Part shown: piece by piece, positions 38,301-50,396 of the stretch | Position numbering within the stretch: the first letter of the stretch is position 1 | Layout: each line of letters starts with the position of its first letter | Assembly: GCF_949628265.1 (NCBI RefSeq) | Contig: NC_088789.1 | Location: 5,262,886-5,326,885 of the forward strand | Length of the DNA stretch: 64,000 nt | Direction of reading: 5' to 3' | Source of the DNA: Cloeon dipterum | Lineage: Eukaryota; Arthropoda; Insecta; Ephemeroptera; Baetidae | The notes under the pieces: generated by a model | What the model saw: the letters and a program-made list of their open reading frames with translations, nothing else | Database searches by the model: none | What the model was told of the DNA's origin: nothing | Made by a program: the position numbers and the translations under genes

Positions 38301-39503
38301 GCAACCATACTTCCGCTCGCGCCAACCGCGGCTAATTCTCACGACTAATTGTGATTAAAATAATTTCCTACCTCCGAAATATTCGACGCAGTACTGCGAA
38401 AAGTGGACAGGCTCGTTCGCAGCCATCTCGCTCTCGTAAAAAAATTGCAGCAGGCCCGTCGGCAGCAGGGTGAAGTTGTCCTCAGGCTCGACGCGCGGAT
38501 CCAGCTTGTACTTGCCGTTGTTGCAATTTTGGTGCCCGGTCAGGAAGAAGACGTCCTCCTTTTTCCCGACCAGGGGCAACTTTTCTTTAAAGATATTCTC
38601 ATGGAACTTGTCATTGCCACCCTCGACGCACTCGGTCACCTCCTTGATGTGGTGGTCCAGCGGGCAGCATTTGCGTACGCAGCTTTTCACCCTGCAGACG
38701 CAACCACGAACGGTGGCGTTGCCCTCGCGAAAGTACAAGTCAGGGCTGAACCGGATGCTGCGCTCCTCGTCTAACAACGTCTTGTTCGGGAAGATCTGAA
38801 ACCGTGTGATGTGGATCGACTCCTCCATCGGACACGGACGGTCATCTTTAGCTTTGCCGGCTCTGGAAAAAAATATTTCCCGTGTAAATTTAAAAGAAGA
38901 TGAGGTAGCTGGTGCAATTAGTTTAAATCTGAATCGTCATCTCAAAACTTGCTGGCTTAAGTTAATCCAAAATTGAAAGCATATCAATTCTGTGGAATGA
39001 CTAGGCAAATGACCAAAGGTCTCCAACTCTCTGGACAGATTTTCGCGCAACTTGCACTCTGTAAAACTGTACAATAAAAAAAGATAATTTCCATTACGGT
39101 TGCCAAGATTGTGAGAAATAAAAAAATACGAACGTCATGAGTGGCGATATACTAAGAAATGTTTTTTTATGATATAATTTAAGTCTGGATGGGCTTTAAT
39201 TTGTGAATTATTCGGATGACACGCCTCGTCATTTTCAGAGAAATGTTATTTGGTTTAAAAAGCAAAGTAAATGCAAAATAAAAGCGTTGACTTTGTATTA
39301 TAAATAAAATCATTTGAGCAGAGAGACCAAACGCCCAAATCATGGAGTAAGTAATATTGAGATGTGCTGCAATTTCACAAATATTTGGAATATAAACATA
39401 ATTCCAGTGTTCTAGGGAAATTTTAAAATAGCCGTGCTTACGCTGAATTGAGGAAAACGGCCAGCAGTAACAGTAGCAATGCTACATTTGGATTTGCAAG
39501 CAT
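32375..39503 (-). CDS. mthl: Methuselah-like secretin-class GPCR
   Basis: Seven coding exons join in phase to 518 aa: 39503-39442, 38862-38372, 35907-35632, 34686-34608, 34044-33848, 33782-33620, 32663-32375. The first exon encodes a signal peptide (MLANPNVALLLLLLAVFLNS). The ectodomain (about 21-200) has ten cysteines, the number expected for the five disulfides of the methuselah ectodomain, with the typical GCVCRVKSCVRKCCPLDH. Seven membrane segments follow: near YSVGMLLSSVFMLLTLAVYA, CHVGCLLSAYISLSIV, FAFFWLNIMCFDI-like FSSAFFWLNIMCFDICWMF, LIIYSSYAWGCPLFLLIICI, LAIILYFFGPISVLMIMN, LYLKLFVVMGLTWILEVV and VTDVCNTLQGLAIFLIFVWK. The short cytoplasmic tail starts KPKVRRLLRERM. Methuselah receptors act at the plasma membrane; the fly founder affects lifespan and stress resistance. 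Which paralogue this is and its ligand are unknown. Confidence 0.93.
32664..33619 (-). other. Methuselah-like gene, last intron (956 bp)
   Basis: Very AT-rich intron between the exon ending DKQK and the exon for TM6-TM7; ends GTAAGC and gttccag on the coding strand. No other feature seen. Confidence 0.6.
34045..35631 (-). other. Two methuselah-like introns flanking the TM3 exon
   Basis: Introns of 945 bp (34687-35631) and 563 bp (34045-34607) surround the 79-bp exon for TM3 at 34608-34686. That exon is too short to stand out as an open frame but is needed for phase and for the FFWLNIMCFDI signature. No nested gene was seen. Confidence 0.6.
35908..38371 (-). other. Methuselah-like intron 2 (2.46 kb)
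   Basis: Separates the main ectodomain exon from the TM1-TM2 exon. It holds a GC-richer island at about 36170-36440 with a 142-codon frame on the + strand that I do not trust, and a run of ten C at 37038-37047. The rest is AT-rich. Confidence 0.55.
38863..39441 (-). other. Methuselah-like intron 1 (579 bp)
   Basis: Lies between the signal-peptide exon and the ectodomain exon; GTAAGC donor and tttccag acceptor on the coding strand. AT-rich, nothing else seen. Confidence 0.6.
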
Positions 39504-39576: not shown

Positions 39577-40618
39577 ATGGAATGATGCAGTCTTGGGACT
39601 TTTGCTGAAATGAAAACCCCACTCCCGCGGCCGCGCCAACCGCACACACATCACCTATAACGCGGCGTATCAAGGGATCGGCTTCTCGCACACTAGACGG
39701 AGCAGGCGCCCCGGCCGCGGGTGAAAGTGCTATTTATTTTTATATTTTACGCTTCTTCTCGGCGTCCAGTGACAGAGAAAAAAAAGCTCGTCGCGTGTGA
39801 CAAATGAGAAATGAGTGGAATTACAGGCCGAAAGGGGCTCTAAATCCAGCCCTCTGCGTCACTCACACCGAGCCGTCCGTTATTATCGGGTGATTATTTG
39901 ACTTCGGCGCTAGCTCTCGTAGTGTTTTGTTTATTGTTGAATCTTCGGAGACGTGCCGCATTCCTCAATCTTGACATTTACACTTAGGCAGTGAAGTCAG
40001 CGAGATCAGAGAAGAGGCTCTCGTCTTTTATTGTTGCTCAATGCTCAACCTCGCGGTTTGGAACACGCGCGCGAGCCTTTGTTAATTATGGCATTATGAG
40101 AGCATAGATTTCCATAGAAATGTGGAAATAGCGATGATGAGTCAGTTTATGTTACGCTTCCTCTACTCTCATTCATAATCTAAAGTTTGCTGAAGGAAAC
40201 GAGAAAGACAAACCACGAGCCTGATTGTTTCCTTTGGCATTATTGGAATTTACTTGGAAGAGTAGGTGTGTGATGTATAACAGGTGGCGCTGATTGCTTT
40301 GAAAATAAACAAATAAAATTTTATAGTTGTAACTGAATGCGAGTTTCAAAAAATTCATTTCTGGTATTAAAAAATTCCTTTAAACAATTAGACAATTCGA
40401 ACGTTGATTTTTGTAGCGATTTAGGCGACCAAGTGAAACAATTAATATTGGTGCACTTCAATCTAGAGACATAATTACTTATATTTTAATGTTGTGCAAA
40501 ATGGTTTAATTTTGAATTAAAATATTTACAAATATGTCTAGTTTACAGCAATTTTTTTAATTAAGTACTTTTTAATATGGTGCAAAATTTTCTTGATTGA
40601 TTTTTTTAGCACATAGAT

Positions 40619-40636
40619 GAGGTGAAATTGACCAGG
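40619..40636 (+). repeat. 18-bp exact copy of the start of MULE-gene exon 3
   Basis: GAGGTGAAATTGACCAGG occurs here and at 42144-42161, where it opens exon 3 of the MULE-derived gene. The preceding bases are also alike (TTTAGCACATAGAT here, TTTGCACAGA there), so the similarity spans a splice acceptor. Here the frame stops at once (TAA after AGG). Probably a decayed duplicate. Confidence 0.45.
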
Positions 40637-41227
40637 TAAAAACAGACTAAGATGATGAAATGATGAATGTACCGAAATTGGCTTTTCTTTTGAAAGCGGG
40701 AGGGGCGAGCGATGTTTAAGTTTAACGTAGTTTTCACTCCCTCAGCGCACGAATTGTCCTAATTTCGGTACATCGCGTGGTACTTGATTTACGGGCCCGT
40801 CCGCCTGGTCATGGCGCCTCTCTTTTTGTCAGTGGCAGGCTAAAGAGTGTCACGACAGTGACCGAAGTTATATTTAAGATGGTTAATTTATTCATGTTTT
40901 TGCTCTTTTTAGTTGAAAACAATTTAATTTATTATACGTGTTAATTGTTAACATTGGTGTAAGTTTTATCTTAATTTCTGATTTTTTATTATGATTTTTG
41001 ATAGGTGCACTTTGGAAAAAATATTTTAATTGAAGTGCAAAATTGGAACTTTAAAAGTTTTCAGATTTCTCAATTGAAATAAAATGTTTTCATAATGGTG
41101 TCAATCCTATTCATTTTAAAGTTTGTTTTTTAATACTTCCTTTCTGCGTGAAATCTTGGTTTGCTCCGACGCCCCCTTGCCTTGACTCTCCAGTCAAATG
41201 CCGCCAAAAATTTTGAAGCTATAATCT

Positions 41228-41536: not shown

Positions 41537-44500
41537 ATGTCAGACGCAGACGAGGCGATGGAGGAAGAGGCATCCGCCAGCGTTTTCCATCTAAACGTGT
41601 CTCAAGGACAGGGCGACGAGGCAGAAGAAGCCAATGACCTGAGCAACTTGATGATTAAAATCGGTGAAAAGTTCTGTAGCTTCGAGCACTACAAAACTCG
41701 AATCAAGGAGCACGAGCGGGTGACGAGAACGCGGTTCTCGCTGATGGACTCGAAGCTACTCACCTGGTTCAGCAAACCTGGCAAAAATCCTCAAAAGGTC
41801 GCTCACGCCAATCCTGAGATCAAGTACTTCTCGCTCACGGCTTGCTGCGTCCGAGGAAAGAATAATAGGAGGACCATCCCAGACAAGGATAGGCTCAGAA
41901 ACAAGCTGTAAATATCAATATTTTTAAATAGTTCTCGTTCATTCATTAACCAGGAATTTTCAAGATCGATGAAACTTGGCTGTCCTGCATTGTTTCACAT
42001 CAAAATGACTCCAGACGGCCAGAGCTTGCAGGTGATGAGAATGGTGCGAGAGCATAATCACCCTGTGGGCCAAGAGTAAGGCTAATCATAAGTTAATAGT
42101 TTCCCAAACCCCTGATTATGTTTGTTTTGTTTGTTTGCACAGAGAGGTGAAATTGACCAGGCAGAAAGCGATGAAGATGAAGGTCGTCGTTCACGAGGGC
42201 TTCATTTATCGCAGGACAACGCCGAAAGGCGGTGAAGCTGTTCTCAAATGCCAGACCGTAAAGTGCAAAGGGCAGGCGATCGAGGATAAAGACGACAATG
42301 TGATCATCGTCGTCGCGCACAATCATGACTCCACTGAGGAGTCCCAAAAGATGAACGACTGCTTGAAGAAAATGGAGGAGCGGGCCATCAGCGAGGCTAT
42401 CCCTGTCGAACAAATATTTGCTGAAGAGGCAGAGAAGTGTGTTGAATTAGAATTACTTCACAAGCTTCACAAAAACTATTGTGATTTTAATAGTGAAAAT
42501 TTAATTGGGAGAAGCCTTCATTTAGACCAAAATGTCTATCACTTAAAAATCATGTAACAATTTAATGCAATTGGAAGTAACGAATATTTTCATCTTCGTC
42601 ATTGCCACAAGAACAGTCTGCGATTCGTGCAATTTCAGTGCTTGTAAATACAAATTAATTGGAAATTCGGATTAATATGCCATTTTTGTAAGTTTTGGTC
42701 TGAAAAAGCTTTTCAAATAAATTGAAACCTGAACAAATTTTTGTGAAAATATATTAGAACAAATTTTAGGCCAAAAAATAGCCATAACAATATTTTAGAT
42801 CAATTTAGTTATTAACATGTAAAAATTTCCTGATTGCAGAAATCCTGATGTAATCACCAGAAAGAGTGAAGGATTTCTGGTCAAAACCTTGTCAAAGAAG
42901 AGGTTGCAGACAGAACCAGAAGTTCCAGAAAGTCTGCTAAGTCTGAGCAATCTGCTTGTGAGTGACCAGTATAGGCACAGGTATGGCTGCAACCTGGAGG
43001 AGTTCCCAAGGGAGCTATTCATAGGGTGCATCAAGGCCAAGGGCAGCGAGGTTGCCGCTATCTTTGCCTCGCTTTTCCTCTGCGAAAGGTTCAACGGGCC
43101 CGTGGACGAAATGCACATTGACTGTAGTTTCAACGTAATTGTTAAATTTTTTTCTGGAAATACACAAGAACTAATCAAACTTTGTTAGGATTTGCCATCT
43201 GTACCTGATGACATGAAGTACATTTTAAGCATTCATTTTGTCAAAAAGAAAATGGTAACTAAGTTTCAAACGCACTTTGGGTGATTTACAATTTTGTCAC
43301 TCTCCTCAGTTCTATCCCTCGGTCTTTGCGTTCACCTCGAGTCGGTCATCATCGATGATAAAAGGGCTTCTCATGTACCTGAAGGAAGAGGTGATGCAGA
43401 ACACAGCGCCAGACATGATCTATGTCGACTTGAAGTGGCAAATTAACTCTGTGCTGTCTGAACAGTTTCCAGGCTCAATTATTGAGCACTCCTATATTTA
43501 TTTCACTAAGGTAAGCGCTTTCCAAACCTGGCCCACAGAAATATTCAGTGGTTGAAAATCCCTGCAAGATAAACACAAATGCAGAGGGTTTTTTGCAAGC
43601 GACGATATTGACAATAGCAAGAATAAACAAACAAGAATAAATTGCCTGTAGTAATTGTAAAAATAATGTAAGTAGTGTGTTCTGACATCATATATCCTTT
43701 CTTATTAAAATTTTTAATTCCAATTAATGGACCCCTAATGCAGACAAAAAATGTGTCGAGGTTTAGACATTTCTGAAGTATCGGTAACATATTTCATTGG
43801 TGAACAGTTGTTTCATTCTTAGTTTTGATCAAATAATTTCGTTTTTAACACAATTCCTGCTTACATCATGATCTTGACTGATAGAAAGACAAAAATGATT
43901 TTTTTTCTTTTCGTTGCTGCTGTAAACTAAATTGGCTGTGCTTCATTGTGCAAAAAATATTTTAATCCCTACAGGACATCTGGAGCCAAGCCCACGAAAT
44001 CGGCCTGATGGGCCTGCAGGAGCAGGAATATGTCATCTTCTGGATCCAGCAGCTAATTTGCCTACCGTTCCTGCCAGCGGACCAAATGCTGCTGGCGCTC
44101 CTTGAGTTTGAGAAAAGCTTGCCCGACGAGATGGTGTGCTCGCCAGTGATGGTGCTGCTCATCCGCTACATACAGGAAACGTGGCTGGACACGTTCGGTG
44201 ACCAGAATCTTAGTACGCACGAAAATCACGGCCGCAGCAACTTGCTCGTCAACCAGTTCCACAAGAAAATCATCGCAGCCCTGAAAATCGCCAAAGAACC
44301 AACTGTCTGGACTATAATAAGTAAGCAAAAGTGATGTTTTAATTTTTGTTATTTTTTCATGTAGTTATTTATCTTATAAATTTATTTAAATCCATATTAT
44401 ATCCGCAAATGAGTTAGTGGAATATTAACCTGGGCTGGCAGTATATTTTTAAAGTGAAATCGCAAAAATGAGATTTTTTTCAAGATAGTACGGCCAGGAA

Positions 44501-44951
44501 ATTTAAATATTATTCTAAAATTTATCCAATTTAACAGAAATGAGAGACGCTGTTTTATAATAATAAAAAAAAAACATCCAAAACTAAGTCCCATAAGTTG
44601 ATAAGTCATATTGGTGCGGGATTTAATTTTGATCTTTCCCTCGCAGAGTGCCTTCAGACAGTGGAGAGAGACAGCTGCAAGTGCTACACAAACGAGATCA
44701 GCAACATTCCAATTAACTCGAACACCCTTTTGTTCATGTGTCAAATGGCCTATGATGAGAGAGTGAAGAAAATTGAACATGAAGTGCTAACTGAAAAGAT
44801 TGACGCGTTGAGTGCTCTCGAACCTTTGTCCAAGCGGCCAGTGATTCATGGCCTGACGCCTGAAGAGACCATATCTTTCACAGATGCCTGCAGAATTCAG
44901 ATTGAAGAAGTTGCAAATGAAGAGGTGTCAATTGACGGGAAAACGAGCTAG
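41537..44951 (+). CDS. Domesticated MULE transposase-like protein with FAR1/FLYWCH zinc modules
   Basis: Eight exons join in phase to 662 aa: 41537-41907, 41965-42075, 42143-42436, 42840-43134, 43189-43254, 43310-43510, 43975-44320, 44647-44951. After an acidic N-terminus, a FAR1-like module (about 48-160) shows TACCVRG, LGCPALFHI and REHNHP. A FLYWCH-like module (about 165-235) shows KCQTVKCKGQAI and VVAHNHD. A MULE transposase domain (about 285-575) shows HIDCSF (Asp353), YPSVFAF, YVDLKWQ (Asp419), FPGSIIE, IWSQAHEIGL, ICLPFLP, TWLDTFGD and RSNLLVNQFHKK. In active MULEs the positions after Asp419, the C-x2-H motif and the N-x-x-E motif are conserved; here they read DLK, SYIY and LVNQ. The long intact frame despite these losses, plus seven introns, argues for a host gene. 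The 5' acceptor before the ATG implies a non-coding first exon. The first intron uses acceptor ttttcaag (57 bp), the only choice that keeps phase at a workable length. Role unknown; DNA binding is likely. Confidence 0.8.
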
Positions 44952-44954
44952 TGA

Positions 44955-44973
44955 AATAAATTTTTTTAATAAA
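44955..44973 (+). terminator. Double AATAAA after the MULE-derived gene
   Basis: AATAAA at 44955-44960 and again at 44968-44973, starting four bases after the TAG. They leave almost no 3' UTR, unless a later site is used. Confidence 0.45.
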
Positions 44974-45079
44974 CAAACTTTAAAACCTTAACGCACCTTT
45001 AATCATTGGTATAATGATGACAAAGAATTTAAGGCAATGATCGCGCATTGTAACTTGTAGATTTGTCTAATACAAACAC

Positions 45080-45316
45080 ATGACATATAGTCATGATTAC
45101 GGCCAATGTTTGTTGCAAATTAAAAAACCCATACAAACGCAATTCAGGTCAGCTAAACGCGATAAAAGTTGGAGGAAAATATTCTCATTACCAGTTCCAA
45201 AAATCAGTTCAGCTGTCCCTGAGGAGCCATCCACAAGCTTTGATGTCGACCCAGCCACGTTTTTACCATGTGATGCAGAAGTGAAAGCTGTTTTTCATGG
45301 CATACAAAATGGTTAA
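45080..45316 (+). other. Orphan 78-codon open frame between convergent genes
   Basis: The second half reads like protein (LPVPKISSAVPEEPSTSF, DVDPATFLPCDAEVKAVFHG) with ordinary codon use, but I do not recognise it. It starts 129 bases past the MULE-gene stop. An acceptor-like attcag precedes GTCAGC near 45150. It could be an alternative last exon of that gene, an exon relic, or chance. The rest of 44974-45505 shows no feature. Confidence 0.25.
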
Positions 45317-45505
45317 GGCACTACACTACGTTAGGAGCCACATCCAAAACCTTTAGCTCTGAAGGAAAACCCCTGGTTCTGGTTAACTTAAGTTTTCAGT
45401 TGGATAGAACCACGTCATATTTATTATATTGTTTTTTATTGCAACTTCTTTTTTCATATTTCACTAATATGATTTTCAATATTTCAAGTCGTATTATTAA
45501 ACATT

Positions 45506-45511
45506 TTTATT
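45506..45511 (-). terminator. Candidate poly(A) signal of TRMT5
   Basis: TTTATT on the + strand gives AATAAA on the coding strand, about 140 bases past the TRMT5 stop. Confidence 0.4.
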
Positions 45512-45651
45512 TGGTGTGCAAATGATAATGAGATGGATACCTCATTTAAAAGGGTTCAAGTTGAGTTGTATTTATCTCAAAAAGGTACCCTTTTTTCTGG
45601 GAAAATTGTTCTCTATCTTCACTTTGTACAATGTATTTATGCCACCTTCGA

Positions 45652-47676
45652 TTAGTTTTGTACACTTGGGGTGCTCTTTTCCAGACAGAGTTTCTTAACC
45701 ACAGGTTCATCATTCTCGCTGGACTTGCCACTGCCAACCTCGGAATTCTCGGATGAATCATTCGTGTCCACAGGTTCATCCGAAATTGATTGGTTTTGCA
45801 CATTTGGAGAGCTCCCTTCCAGATCCCCAGGTTCATCATTCTCAGAGATCTTGTCACTGCCACCCTCCGAACTCTCAGACGAATCACTTATGTCCACAGG
45901 TTCGTCTGAAAGTGATACGTTATGCACATTTGGAGAGCTCCCTTCCAGGCAATCACCAGGTTCATCATTCTCAGAGGACTTGTCACTGCCACCCTCCGAA
46001 CTCTCGGACAAATCACTACTGTCCACAGGTTCATCTGAAAGTGATTCGTTTTTCACATTTGGAGAGCTCCCTTCTAGATCCCCAGGTTCATCATTCTCAG
46101 AGGACTTGTCACTGCCACCCTCCGAACTCTCGGACGAATCACTACTGTCCACAGGTTCGTCCAAAAGTGATTCGTTATGCACATTTGGAGAGCTCCCTTC
46201 CTGACAGTCATCAGGTTCATCATTCTCAGAGAACTTGTCACTGCCACCCTCGGAACTCTTGGACGAATCACTAATGTCCACAGTTGTGTCAGTCAGTGAT
46301 TCGTTTTGCACATTTGGAGTACCCTGACAGAGTTTCTTTACTACAAACTCGTTATTCTCATCAGAATTTTCCCCGCCATTCTCATTATTAACACTCTCTG
46401 TGGACTCAATTGTATTAAAAGATTCATCAGATGCGGCGTTGCAAATAATGTTTAGGGGATATTCGAAAGTCAGTCTAACCATAAACTTACTCGGCGACAC
46501 TTTCCGCACCAGTTTGGTTTCTATTAAGTCTTCTTTCAGTTGGAATCCGAGGCCTTTTTCCACCAACTCAAGGGCGAGTTTTTCCGGCTCAAAATAATTG
46601 GCAAAGCAGTAGACGTGGAACGTGATGGGCACAGGATGTAAGGTGTATATGCACGAGGAGTCCAGGAGACCCTTGAAGGCATTCAGGAAGGTTGTGGCGA
46701 TCAATGGAAGGTTCATGATGATGTGCAATCTAGTGTTCGGGTCGATGTCAGCTGCGAACAGCTCATCAAGGTCTTTCTTGATCACGGTCTGGATGAATTC
46801 CCGGCCATCCATGTTGAAGCATTCGACACTACCATTATTTTTGGTGACCTTGTTCTCTTTGACATTGACCTGGAGCCACTTGTAAGACTCTGGATTGAGG
46901 TCGTTGGCGAGCACGCGAGCTCCCCTAATGGCTGCTGGAATAGCGAATGGTCCGACGCCGGCAAACACGTCGTACACGACGTCATTTTTTGAAATCATGT
47001 CGACGACTCTGAAGTGCTCAGTCGACAGCCTCGAGTTCCAGTAGACCTTGCCAAAGTCAAGGTGGAAGATGCAGTTGTTCTCCTTGACGCTGGACACGAG
47101 GTTATCTTCGCCAGCCAGCACCTCCATGGTGAAGTTGCGGTACGTGTTGTCGATGGGGTCCGACTTGTTGACCACGGTGGTCACGCCGTTCACCTTGTCG
47201 AGCAGCACTTGGCCAATCAGATCCTTGTAAGGCAACAGGTGCTCGTGCAGGTTGAGGTGCAGAATATGACCGATGACCGTGAAGGCCTTAGTGCCGTCCT
47301 CGTCCTCAGGTAGCACAGCTTGCAGGATCTGCTCACTGCGCCAGTTGTTGTAGCCAACCTCGATTTCCGTTGTCTCGAACTTGGCATCCAGCTTTTCCAG
47401 CGTCTCCTGGTCCGCTTCCTTCAGGTCACACAACGTCTGGATCATATCTGGGCTGAGCAGTACCTTCTTGAACGTACTATCGGACCCGTTGACAACAGAC
47501 GACATCTTCTCAAGCTTCAGCAGGTACGGTTTGATGGTCTTCCTCACCTTGTTCATATCGTTTGCGGGGATGATCAAGCACGGCACCGTCACACTCTTGG
47601 TAAACGCTGCCCTGTCTAGCACTTGCATACCCCGGACACCCGTTGGCGGTTTTAGTGGTGATGCTGCGGTTGACAT
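45652..47676 (-). CDS. TRMT5: tRNA (guanine37-N1)-methyltransferase TRMT5/Trm5
   Basis: One coding exon of 674 aa from the ATG at 47676-47674; the frame extends 12 bases further to a GTG, but that is not a start. TRMT5 transfers methyl from S-adenosylmethionine to N1 of G37 next to the anticodon, in nucleus/cytosol and mitochondria, and so limits frameshifting. Family marks are PPTGVRGMQVLDRAAF near the N-terminus, IGHILHLNLHEHLLPYK, TYRNFTMEVLAGE, FGKVYWNSRLSTEH, the SAM-binding VYDVFAGVGPFAIPAA and ANDLNPESYKWL, and the catalytic MNLP. The core ends near residue 425. The remaining 250 residues, absent from human TRMT5 (509 aa), are acidic and Ser-rich and consist mostly of five tandem units. 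A good acceptor (tttttcag, exon edge 47698) lies 22 bases before the ATG and the frame stays open up to it, so an upstream exon, perhaps with a mitochondrial presequence, is possible. Confidence 0.94.
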   Translation of the reverse strand: MSTAASPLKPPTGVRGMQVLDRAAFTKSVTVPCLIIPANDMNKVRKTIKPYLLKLEKMSSVVNGSDSTFKKVLLSPDMIQTLCDLKEADQETLEKLDAKFETTEIEVGYNNWRSEQILQAVLPEDEDGTKAFTVIGHILHLNLHEHLLPYKDLIGQVLLDKVNGVTTVVNKSDPIDNTYRNFTMEVLAGEDNLVSSVKENNCIFHLDFGKVYWNSRLSTEHFRVVDMISKNDVVYDVFAGVGPFAIPAAIRGARVLANDLNPESYKWLQVNVKENKVTKNNGSVECFNMDGREFIQTVIKKDLDELFAADIDPNTRLHIIMNLPLIATTFLNAFKGLLDSSCIYTLHPVPITFHVYCFANYFEPEKLALELVEKGLGFQLKEDLIETKLVRKVSPSKFMVRLTFEYPLNIICNAASDESFNTIESTESVNNENGGENSDENNEFVVKKLCQGTPNVQNESLTDTTVDISDSSKSSEGGSDKFSENDEPDDCQEGSSPNVHNESLLDEPVDSSDSSESSEGGSDKSSENDEPGDLEGSSPNVKNESLSDEPVDSSDLSESSEGGSDKSSENDEPGDCLEGSSPNVHNVSLSDEPVDISDSSESSEGGSDKISENDEPGDLEGSSPNVQNQSISDEPVDTNDSSENSEVGSGKSSENDEPVVKKLCLEKSTPSVQN
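45684..46343 (-). repeat. Five-unit in-frame coding tandem repeat (126/129/126/129/132 bp)
   Basis: On the + strand, units start with CAGGTTCATCATTCTC-like sequence at 45702, 45828, 45957, 46083 and 46212, with a diverged copy at 46344. All spacings are multiples of three. Each encodes about 42-44 residues of the pattern SDEPVDSSDSSESSEGGSDK, SSENDEP, then GDLEGSSPN or GDCLEGSSPN. The two unit lengths alternate, which suggests duplication of a dimer. The frame CAGAGTTTCTT (encoding VVKKLC) occurs at both ends of the array (45686 and 46328) but not inside it. Confidence 0.9.
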
Positions 47677-47698
47677 TTTTAGCAGCACGGGCAGCAGG

Positions 47699-50396
47699 CT
47701 GAAAAAATATAGAGTTTAGTTTATAAAATACTTTGATTTATACCATGGGTGGATAAATATTCCCCTTCGAATTGTAATCCAGAAGAGATTTTCAGAAAGG
47801 AGAGCGAATAAATGTAGGTCTGGATGAAGTAAAAGATTCCATAAGAGTACATAATACATAGTCTACATATTTAGAAAAGGTGTAAGCTGCAAAGAATGAT
47901 TACATATACATAATCTGTATTTTACCTATGTCATGAATGTAAGTATAGGAATATGTAATTATAATAGTGGCACTCGAGAAAAAATGTGAAATTGTGGAAA
48001 TTGTATGTAGATAATATGTATTAAGATAATGTATGCGCATTTTGAACAGGATAATTTCTAAAACGAAGCAAAATAAATATTACATATATTATATGTACAT
48101 ACCGCATGAATAATTGTACTTCTTTTATTCTTCAGTGAACAACTTCTGTCAGTACTTCAGCGTGGGGTCTTTTGCATGACCCAAAAAAATATTGCTGTAG
48201 AGCCCCGAAACACAGCTGGGATCTGGGACTGAAAACGAGCGACCACAAGACGAAGAGCGAAGTCGACGTCGACACGTTATGTTAGGTCCCAATGTGGTCG
48301 CAGCAGCCAGCAGTTGAGCAGTTCAGCTCGAGTCACGTGATTTTTTAGTTCAAATAAAAAGACCGCGAAGAAATATAATTTCCTTCGTATTTTTCAAAAT
48401 GTTATTATCAGACACACATTTTTGTGCAAGGCACAAATTTAAAATAATTAATTTATGATTAATTTATAATAATTAATTTATGATCATGCAGTCTATAACT
48501 TTAATTTAATAAATTCAATGATCTCCAAATCTCCAAACTCTTCAAACAAAATTTTTTATGGGTGAAGAATATAAGGCAATCTGATTAAATAGTTCTCGAT
48601 GGTTGGAAGTTAATAATTTCCACAAAGATTAGAATTAATACAGGCAATGAAATAATAAAGATCACGCGTAAAAAATATGGTATGTAAAAATATTTGTAAT
48701 TTATTGATATTCAGCACATGAATTTTAAATCCCAATCCAAGCATTACATTCCAAATCAAAATATAAGCGAAAATTGCGAAAGAGACGCACAGAAAATTTG
48801 AAATACGCAGTATTGGAATTTTCATCAATTTTTTACTTTTTAAACAAATGTTTAGGATTATCTTAAAAATTAACACTTCATTTATTTTTCAGATGAATAC
48901 TTTATTGTTTTGAAAGACAGCATTTAATATACAAGTCAAATTTTCCAATCTTACAAAGTGCCAGAGTTTGTTATTAACTAAGCAATATTATAATACTTTG
49001 TAACTGCGTTAACTTTATTCAATAATCAATTGGATTTACAGTCGTAATTTATTTTGAATTCGATGTTAATGTAAATGAGCTTTGGTAGATATAATACTCC
49101 GTAATTTGCAATCGTTGTTCATTTGAGAAACGTTTCCTGTAAAACCTATTGCACCACGCACTTCTAAAATCGTGTTTTTAATAAATTACTAGGTACACAA
49201 CAATTTTTCTCATTCGATTATCAACTTGAAATTTAAAACTTTAAGGCCCACTTAGCAATTGATCAGATTTTCCCTCAAAATGTTCAACAAAGTTTTGGTG
49301 CATTTTTTCCTTACAATCCAACGTATTGAGCCTGAGATGAGAGATGTAAATTAAAAGAACAAGTTAATTTAAGCACTTTCGTCAGCACCAAGGCAACGAC
49401 GACGAGATTATTCTACTGCGGACAGATTCATTCCTTAATAAGTAGTAACTGCCGAAATTGCTGCATTCGTAGTATCACTGTACACAATGTGATGGTTGTA
49501 AGTATGTACATACATTATTATGTTGCGAATTAAAAGTAAATAGAGATCCACAAAGAGCGACTAAAATTGATTCATCATGTATTATAGTATAAATTACTTA
49601 AAAGTGAGATTCGTTAAAAGATATTTAAAAGGTTAAATTCAGCGCATGAAAAAACAATACGGACGTTTTAGAATCAAAATTGTCGATAAATAATCATTGT
49701 TTTCATTAACCCTCGTAGAGAGTTCGAGTTCAGCCTTATTGTTTCGATCGTAATTCAATTGAACCAAAGAGCCTCACACTTGTTCAGAATTGGCAGTGAA
49801 TTTAGACAAGTTTTCCAACAAATACGCAATAATTCAAAATTGAGCTCAAGAAGCGCTAACGTTGTTAATTTACAATAAGGACGTTCATGACTCCCTAGGC
49901 CCAAGCATGGATTTGATACTCGTAAAACTCAACACGATTTTGGCACATTCCAGTGCGGTTCGACACCGCCAGGAATAAAAAAAGGAAGACAAAAGTGTGC
50001 AGTCATAACTGCCAAGCCTTTGATAAAATCAATAAAAGTCAACAATGCGATATATATTATATAGAGCTCCTGTAGCATTGTGATTTTCTGATTGCTGCCA
50101 AAATTTTTCTTCCGAGCAGGTCTCAAAGCCGGGCAAATTTTATATATTGAATTCACATATGGTAAAATATCTTTACTCTAAATCAATAAAATTGGGCCAA
50201 TAAGCGGCGAGTTTTTCACTGCAACTTCTGATCACCAAAACCTGCTCAAAAAGGGAAGGAAACATACTTACCTTATGAATGGCACCAAAATATGGACTCA
50301 GAGGACTAGATATTTTACATTTGTGAAAATCTTGAATCAATATAATCTTATGTGAACTGATCTGTTGCATTTCTAAATAACTCAAACAATAAGAGT
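47699..50396. other. Gene-poor AT-rich DNA, TRMT5 promoter side
   Basis: About 2.7 kb between TRMT5 and NKAIN. 48180-48340 is GC-richer and carries the likely TRMT5 promoter. At 48445-48490 AATTAATTTATGAT is repeated about three times. A GGTTCGACACC at 49958 recalls a tRNA B box, but no cloverleaf fits. I see no gene in the remainder. Confidence 0.5.
48227..48340 (-). promoter_or_regulatory. Candidate TRMT5 promoter with E-box and initiator
   Basis: TCACGTGA at 48333-48340 and, 100 bases downstream in the direction of transcription, a TCAGTC initiator (48232-48227). The stretch is locally rich in CG, unlike its surroundings. A non-coding first exon starting here and spliced to the acceptor at 47698 would fit; the donor was not fixed. 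Confidence 0.35.

Follow-up and report, generated by a model that had tools for sequence, protein, structure and literature searches.

MULE-derived regulators are already described in animals (PMC10027918), and FHY3-like proteins are reported in some of them (PMC10027918; PMC13306707). FLYWCH transcription factors have been described as derived from Phantom/Mutator elements (PMC12265568; PMC10027918). Some arthropod MULE relatives without ends have been suggested to be possibly domesticated (PMC6446971). The kind of gene reported here is therefore already known, and this particular gene is taken to be new as a member of it. The combination of a ZSWIM3_N module, a FLYWCH module and a dead MULE core was not found in the titles, abstract beginnings and passages of the open-licence papers that the literature searches listed.

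The catalytic residues of this group are known from Muta1, an active MULE of a mosquito. Its transposition requires each of two Asp residues, a Glu, a His and a Trp: replacing D214, D283 or E419 with alanine abolishes it, and the change H307A lowers it by 99.5% (PMC5225508).

The gene described here was found in the window, a 64,000-nt stretch of the genome of the mayfly Cloeon dipterum that covers positions 5262886-5326885 of contig C4. It is probably a domesticated MULE transposase that is dead for transposition and would act as a DNA-binding regulator.

Gene structure and zinc modules

Splicing, open reading frame and coding-score analysis placed the gene at 41537-44951 on the plus strand, where eight exons join into one frame of 662 codons (1989 nt, that is, 662 aa and a stop). 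The seven introns are all GT-AG, have consistent phases and measure 54 to 464 nt, which bears out the original prediction of 662 open codons over eight in-phase exons. From base composition, the chance of 662 open codons is p about 3e-16, and the remaining two forward frames, after splicing, contain 42 and 41 stops. The acceptor of intron 1 (41908-41964) was set between CAAG and ATC because a CAG 11 nt upstream of it disrupts the frame. Exon 3 lacks a strong donor (GTGTGT).

On a codon-usage model derived from four neighbouring frames, the true frame of the spliced gene scored 0.354 bits per codon, the best of the six frames (at most 0.153 for the other five). Six of the eight exons scored 0.15-0.52 individually in the true frame. 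Exon 5 scored -0.06, still the top of its three frames, and exon 2 scored better outside the true frame (0.04 vs 0.21); both values count against the preferred reading. The GC3 of the gene, 0.63, is host-like: it is 0.57-0.67 in four neighbouring open frames, which were taken from stop to stop and may have non-coding ends, and 0.44-0.51 in four MULE frames resident in the same genome. The introns have a GC content of 0.30, unlike the exon GC3.

The two neighbours named earlier are both present on the minus strand: the methuselah-like gene as a Methuselah_N frame at 38355-38936, and TRMT5 as a methyltransferase of the TRM5/TYW2 type at 45652-47715. The TRM5-type gene ends, from 45697 to about 46300, in an acidic, serine-rich tandem repeat with a unit of about 42 residues.

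Two zinc modules were matched over their Pfam cut-offs. ZSWIM3_N lies at aa 40-156 (E 6.9e-14; 52.7 bits, cut-off 27.8); its first part is encoded with the N-terminus by exon 1 (41537-41907) and the remainder by exon 2 (41965-42075). FLYWCH lies at aa 172-222 in exon 3 (42143-42436; E 1.1e-5; 25.9 bits, cut-off 23.6). An overlapping FAR1 match to the first module scored 27.5 bits, slightly below its cut-off of 28.1. Of the earlier description of FAR1-like and FLYWCH-like modules, the second name holds, but the N-terminal module is better named ZSWIM3_N. Cys and His residues able to act as zinc ligands occur in both modules: C103/C104 (exon 1) with C130, H154 and H156 (exon 2) in the former, and C197, C202, H220 and H222 in the latter. 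Their assignment as candidate ligands follows what we take to be the patterns of these zinc-finger classes. Pfam gave no match to a C-terminal SWIM finger in the gene, including exon 8 (44647-44951), which encodes the C-terminus; a frame of one resident MULE family, family A, does match SWIM.

The transposase-like core

Exon 4 (42840-43134) encodes a linker and the putative first MULE Asp, D353, and is followed by core sequence in exon 5 (43189-43254) and exon 6 (43310-43510). A MULE-type domain had been proposed after the zinc modules. The order stood, but the Pfam match is weak: against a cut-off of 27.6, MULE scored 13.5 bits at aa 376-437 (E 0.099) and 16.2 bits on a hand-cut 108-aa core (E 0.015), for which it was the sole Pfam match. 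The ZSWIM1-3_RNaseH-like model gave no match in the gene at E up to 10. The protein had no match among solved structures. One NCBIfam match at E 0.11 was read as chance, none of four pattern matches to viral contigs was confirmed, and Rfam gave no match at gathering scores.

Core residues were compared through the columns of the Pfam MULE profile, anchored on the match ends with no gaps assumed up to the match end. Columns 71, 92 and 95 hold the second Asp, C and H in the resident MULE L003 and D419, S440 and Y443 in the gene, and the Asp-to-C spacing is 21 columns in both. The residues S440-Y-I-Y443 of exon 6 thus replace C-x2-H, as had been read at the outset, and D353 and D419 stand in the spliced translation where they were first placed. 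The claim that the N-x-x-E position had changed was sustained as to the loss of the acid, as no acidic residue occurs at 536-541 in any register; the exact residue, N539, was read by eye. It lies in exon 7 (43975-44320), beyond the Pfam profile, where R-S-N-L-L-V-N in the gene faces R-T-T-N-x-x-E in the resident MULEs. The conserved Trp is apparently kept upstream as W516, also by eye. Trp and Glu are 20 residues apart in three resident sequences, but W516 and N539 are 23 apart, which leaves the register of these two residues uncertain. The D-D-E triad is incomplete, with both Asp residues kept and the third acid absent. Given these replacements and the Muta1 mutants, the gene product is predicted to be unable to transpose.

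An alternative is that the C-terminal part of a host protein was never a transposase, and that zinc modules shared with MULEs through ancient descent or capture are joined to an unrelated core. The sub-threshold MULE match fits this, as does the ZSWIM1-3_RNaseH-like model, which misses the gene yet matches nine resident places. The resident cores also fail to align with that of the gene: neither MAFFT nor hhalign produced an alignment with the resident MULE frames. This result counts against the preferred reading, as does tblastn of the gene against 12 resident stretches, which gave nothing below E 1. Against an unrelated core, the second Asp and the C and H positions fall in the same columns of the MULE profile, equally spaced, as in a resident MULE, and the 108-aa piece, which was cut to fit, matched MULE only, at E 0.015 among 24736 models or about 6e-7 for one preselected model. 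A zinc module followed by an RNase H core is the order of MULE transposases, and a predicted intron is common to the gene and resident MULEs. We regard a core that was never a transposase as quite unlikely.

Resident MULE families, copy number and flanks

The genome searched was a 190-Mb assembly of 10 contigs; profile searches were run exon by exon, so that the counts are lower bounds. The MULE model matched at least nine places, all of them also matched by the ZSWIM1-3 RNase H model and none of them the window gene. Family A (L024-L028) has five copies, four of which are 99.4-99.9% identical to L024 over main alignments of 3.2-9.8 kb. Family B (L029-L030) has two copies that share 99.9% identity along 9.8 kb; their inverted repeats measure 858 nt or more and run up to the edge of the sequence examined. 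Both families look like young ZSWIM-type MULEs. Arrays of tandem repeats, each about 174 nt long, flank family A. The remaining two of the nine places share 89% identity over 1.4 kb.

Catalytic residues were read in three of the five family A copies (L003, L004 and L006), in both family B copies (L008 and L009; Trp and Glu in L029 only) and in L002. The motifs of the resident frames are D-[SAT]-T, D-K-[DA]-M and C-x-F-H, then N-x-x-E-S-H downstream of the conserved Trp; wherever they were read in families A and B, the D, D, C-x2-H, W and E positions are all retained. At the ninth MULE place, L010, the C-x2-H position reads CYFQ.

ZSWIM3_N at E up to 1 was found at no fewer than 10 places, the window gene being the best (8.3e-11). 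Elsewhere the model matched family B twice over its cut-off, and family A five times and two other places below it. In alignments of this module, the gene scored 92 against family B, a value that none of 300 shuffles reached (highest 48), and 47 against family A, a marginal value that 1 of 300 shuffles equalled and that counts against the preferred reading. FLYWCH at E up to 0.01 was found at three or more places, the window gene and two adjoining places on C4 at 21.65 Mb. The latter are two adjacent FLYWCH-coding frames at about 3600-6830 of L033, with no MULE match listed there.

Intron 1 of the gene, phase 2, lies directly before S-M-K-L-G-C. In families A and B, a phase-2 intron is predicted directly before S-Y-K-(L/Q)-G-C, that is, at the same residue. 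The resident splice sites are predicted only, picked by eye with the acceptor chosen by frame and the donor to match, and GTTTGA, the donor chosen in family B, is a weak one. The chance of an identical intron place and phase over the module of about 117 residues is estimated at roughly 1 in 350, before the choice of splice sites is considered.

The DNA of exon 1 matched itself alone in the genome, and so did 42840-45650, except for about 60 nt of intron 7. This short repeat, at 44466-44525 of the window, has three relatives elsewhere in the genome. The parts searched are thus single copy apart from short repeats, in keeping with the low copy number expected of an exapted gene, and the resident MULEs are multi-copy and near-identical. 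No MULE ends were found at the gene, whereas family B has long inverted repeats. MULEs without terminal repeats have been described (PMC6446971), so the absence of ends at the gene is weak evidence.

Two candidates for ends were rejected. The first is a pair of AT-rich 20-nt inverted arms (19/20) found by repeat search around the gene, the left at 41114-41133 on the plus strand and the right at 44966-44985 on the minus strand. None of 100 shuffles and none of 200 random placements in the window gave a pair this good. The right arm includes AATAAA just past the stop codon, and no target duplication of 8-10 bp was seen by eye beside the arms. The pair is probably a coincidence; it might be a worn transposon end, which counts against the preferred reading. 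The second candidate is a repeat at 40666-40866. The 1237 nt of 5' flank had at least 52 genome matches (40 of 68 candidates scored), of which one is the flank itself and the rest fall within this repeat; it is MITE-like instead and has dozens of relatives elsewhere in the genome. It contains a pair of 13-nt inverted arms. Sequence comparison revealed that the junction of intron 2 and exon 3 has a decayed second copy at 40602-40655 on the plus strand (78% over 54 aligned columns). This duplicate adjoins the MITE-like repeat, and no further copy of it was among the genome matches listed for the flank.

The gene could also be a solitary, dead MULE copy with no host function and a frame that has yet to break. 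Dying families can leave single copies, the catalytic residues are gone, and the 20-nt inverted pair surrounds the gene. However, the frame, splice sites and zinc ligands are intact despite three changed catalytic positions and a very divergent core, the GC3 is host-like, and the arms have no target duplication, with AATAAA in the right one. A relic of this sort is unlikely.

The gene is intact, rich in introns and apparently single copy; its codons are host-like, its zinc modules complete and its catalytic residues replaced, a set of features that a domesticated MULE transposase explains best. The copy-number, residue, zinc-ligand, intron and GC3 evidence agrees with the exapted transposase of the original prediction, in which ZSWIM3_N is the better label than FAR1-like. 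We infer that selection maintained the protein. It would enter the nucleus, where one or both zinc modules may bind specific DNA, and it would be unable to cut or join DNA. It may thus regulate host genes or chromatin, and the former RNase H core could act as a dimerization or partner scaffold, as in FAR1/FHY3-type proteins. By analogy, the mode of action is most likely that of FAR1/FHY3- or FLYWCH-type regulators, namely DNA binding without cutting.

A domesticated protein might instead restrain the resident MULEs by occupying their ends. The ZSWIM3_N module is common to the young resident MULEs and the gene, but the modules are distant (marginal for family A) and no other observation supports such restraint, which we hold to be very unlikely. 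Most improbable is a composite in which the DNA-reading heads of two MULE lineages, ZSWIM3_N with its ancestral intron and FLYWCH, sit on a dead core and brake the young ZSWIM-type MULEs by reading their ends.

Comparison with described systems

Domesticated transposases matter here as a repeated source of new DNA-binding proteins. This retired gene and its young MULE relatives, with an intron position predicted to be common to them, occur in one genome, which allows a side-by-side comparison. The losses on domestication would be the third acid, C-x2-H, SWIM and the ends; the zinc ligands and two Asp residues would have been kept.

The gene resembles the resident ZSWIM-type MULEs (L024-L030) in its ZSWIM3_N module (over the cut-off in family B, under it in family A), in the predicted phase-2 intron site and in module order. 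It differs from them in that they are multi-copy, that family B has long inverted repeats and that D-D-C-x2-H-W-E is kept where read. In addition, a family A frame matches SWIM, and no FLYWCH match was listed for the resident elements. Judged on its triad, its C-x2-H position, its ends and the copy number of the parts searched, the gene is not an active MULE.

Like ZSWIM3/ZSWIM1 proteins, the gene has an N-terminal ZSWIM3_N over the cut-off followed by a putative RNase H-like (MULE) core. Unlike them, it has an intervening FLYWCH module, and the ZSWIM1-3_RNaseH-like and SWIM models are unmatched; the domains of vertebrate ZSWIM1/3 were taken here from Pfam names. The gene is not a full ZSWIM3 protein, as it matches neither the RNase H model nor SWIM.

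The plant FAR1/FHY3 proteins and the animal FHY3-like proteins (PMC10027918; PMC13306707) are MULE-derived, as the gene probably is, and the gene has an overlapping sub-threshold FAR1 match. It differs from FAR1/FHY3 proteins in that this match falls slightly short of the cut-off and in its additional FLYWCH module. With FLYWCH transcription factors it shares the FLYWCH module, which in the gene is over the cut-off and has four candidate ligands. In contrast to those factors, the gene still has another zinc module as well as an entire transposase-like core.
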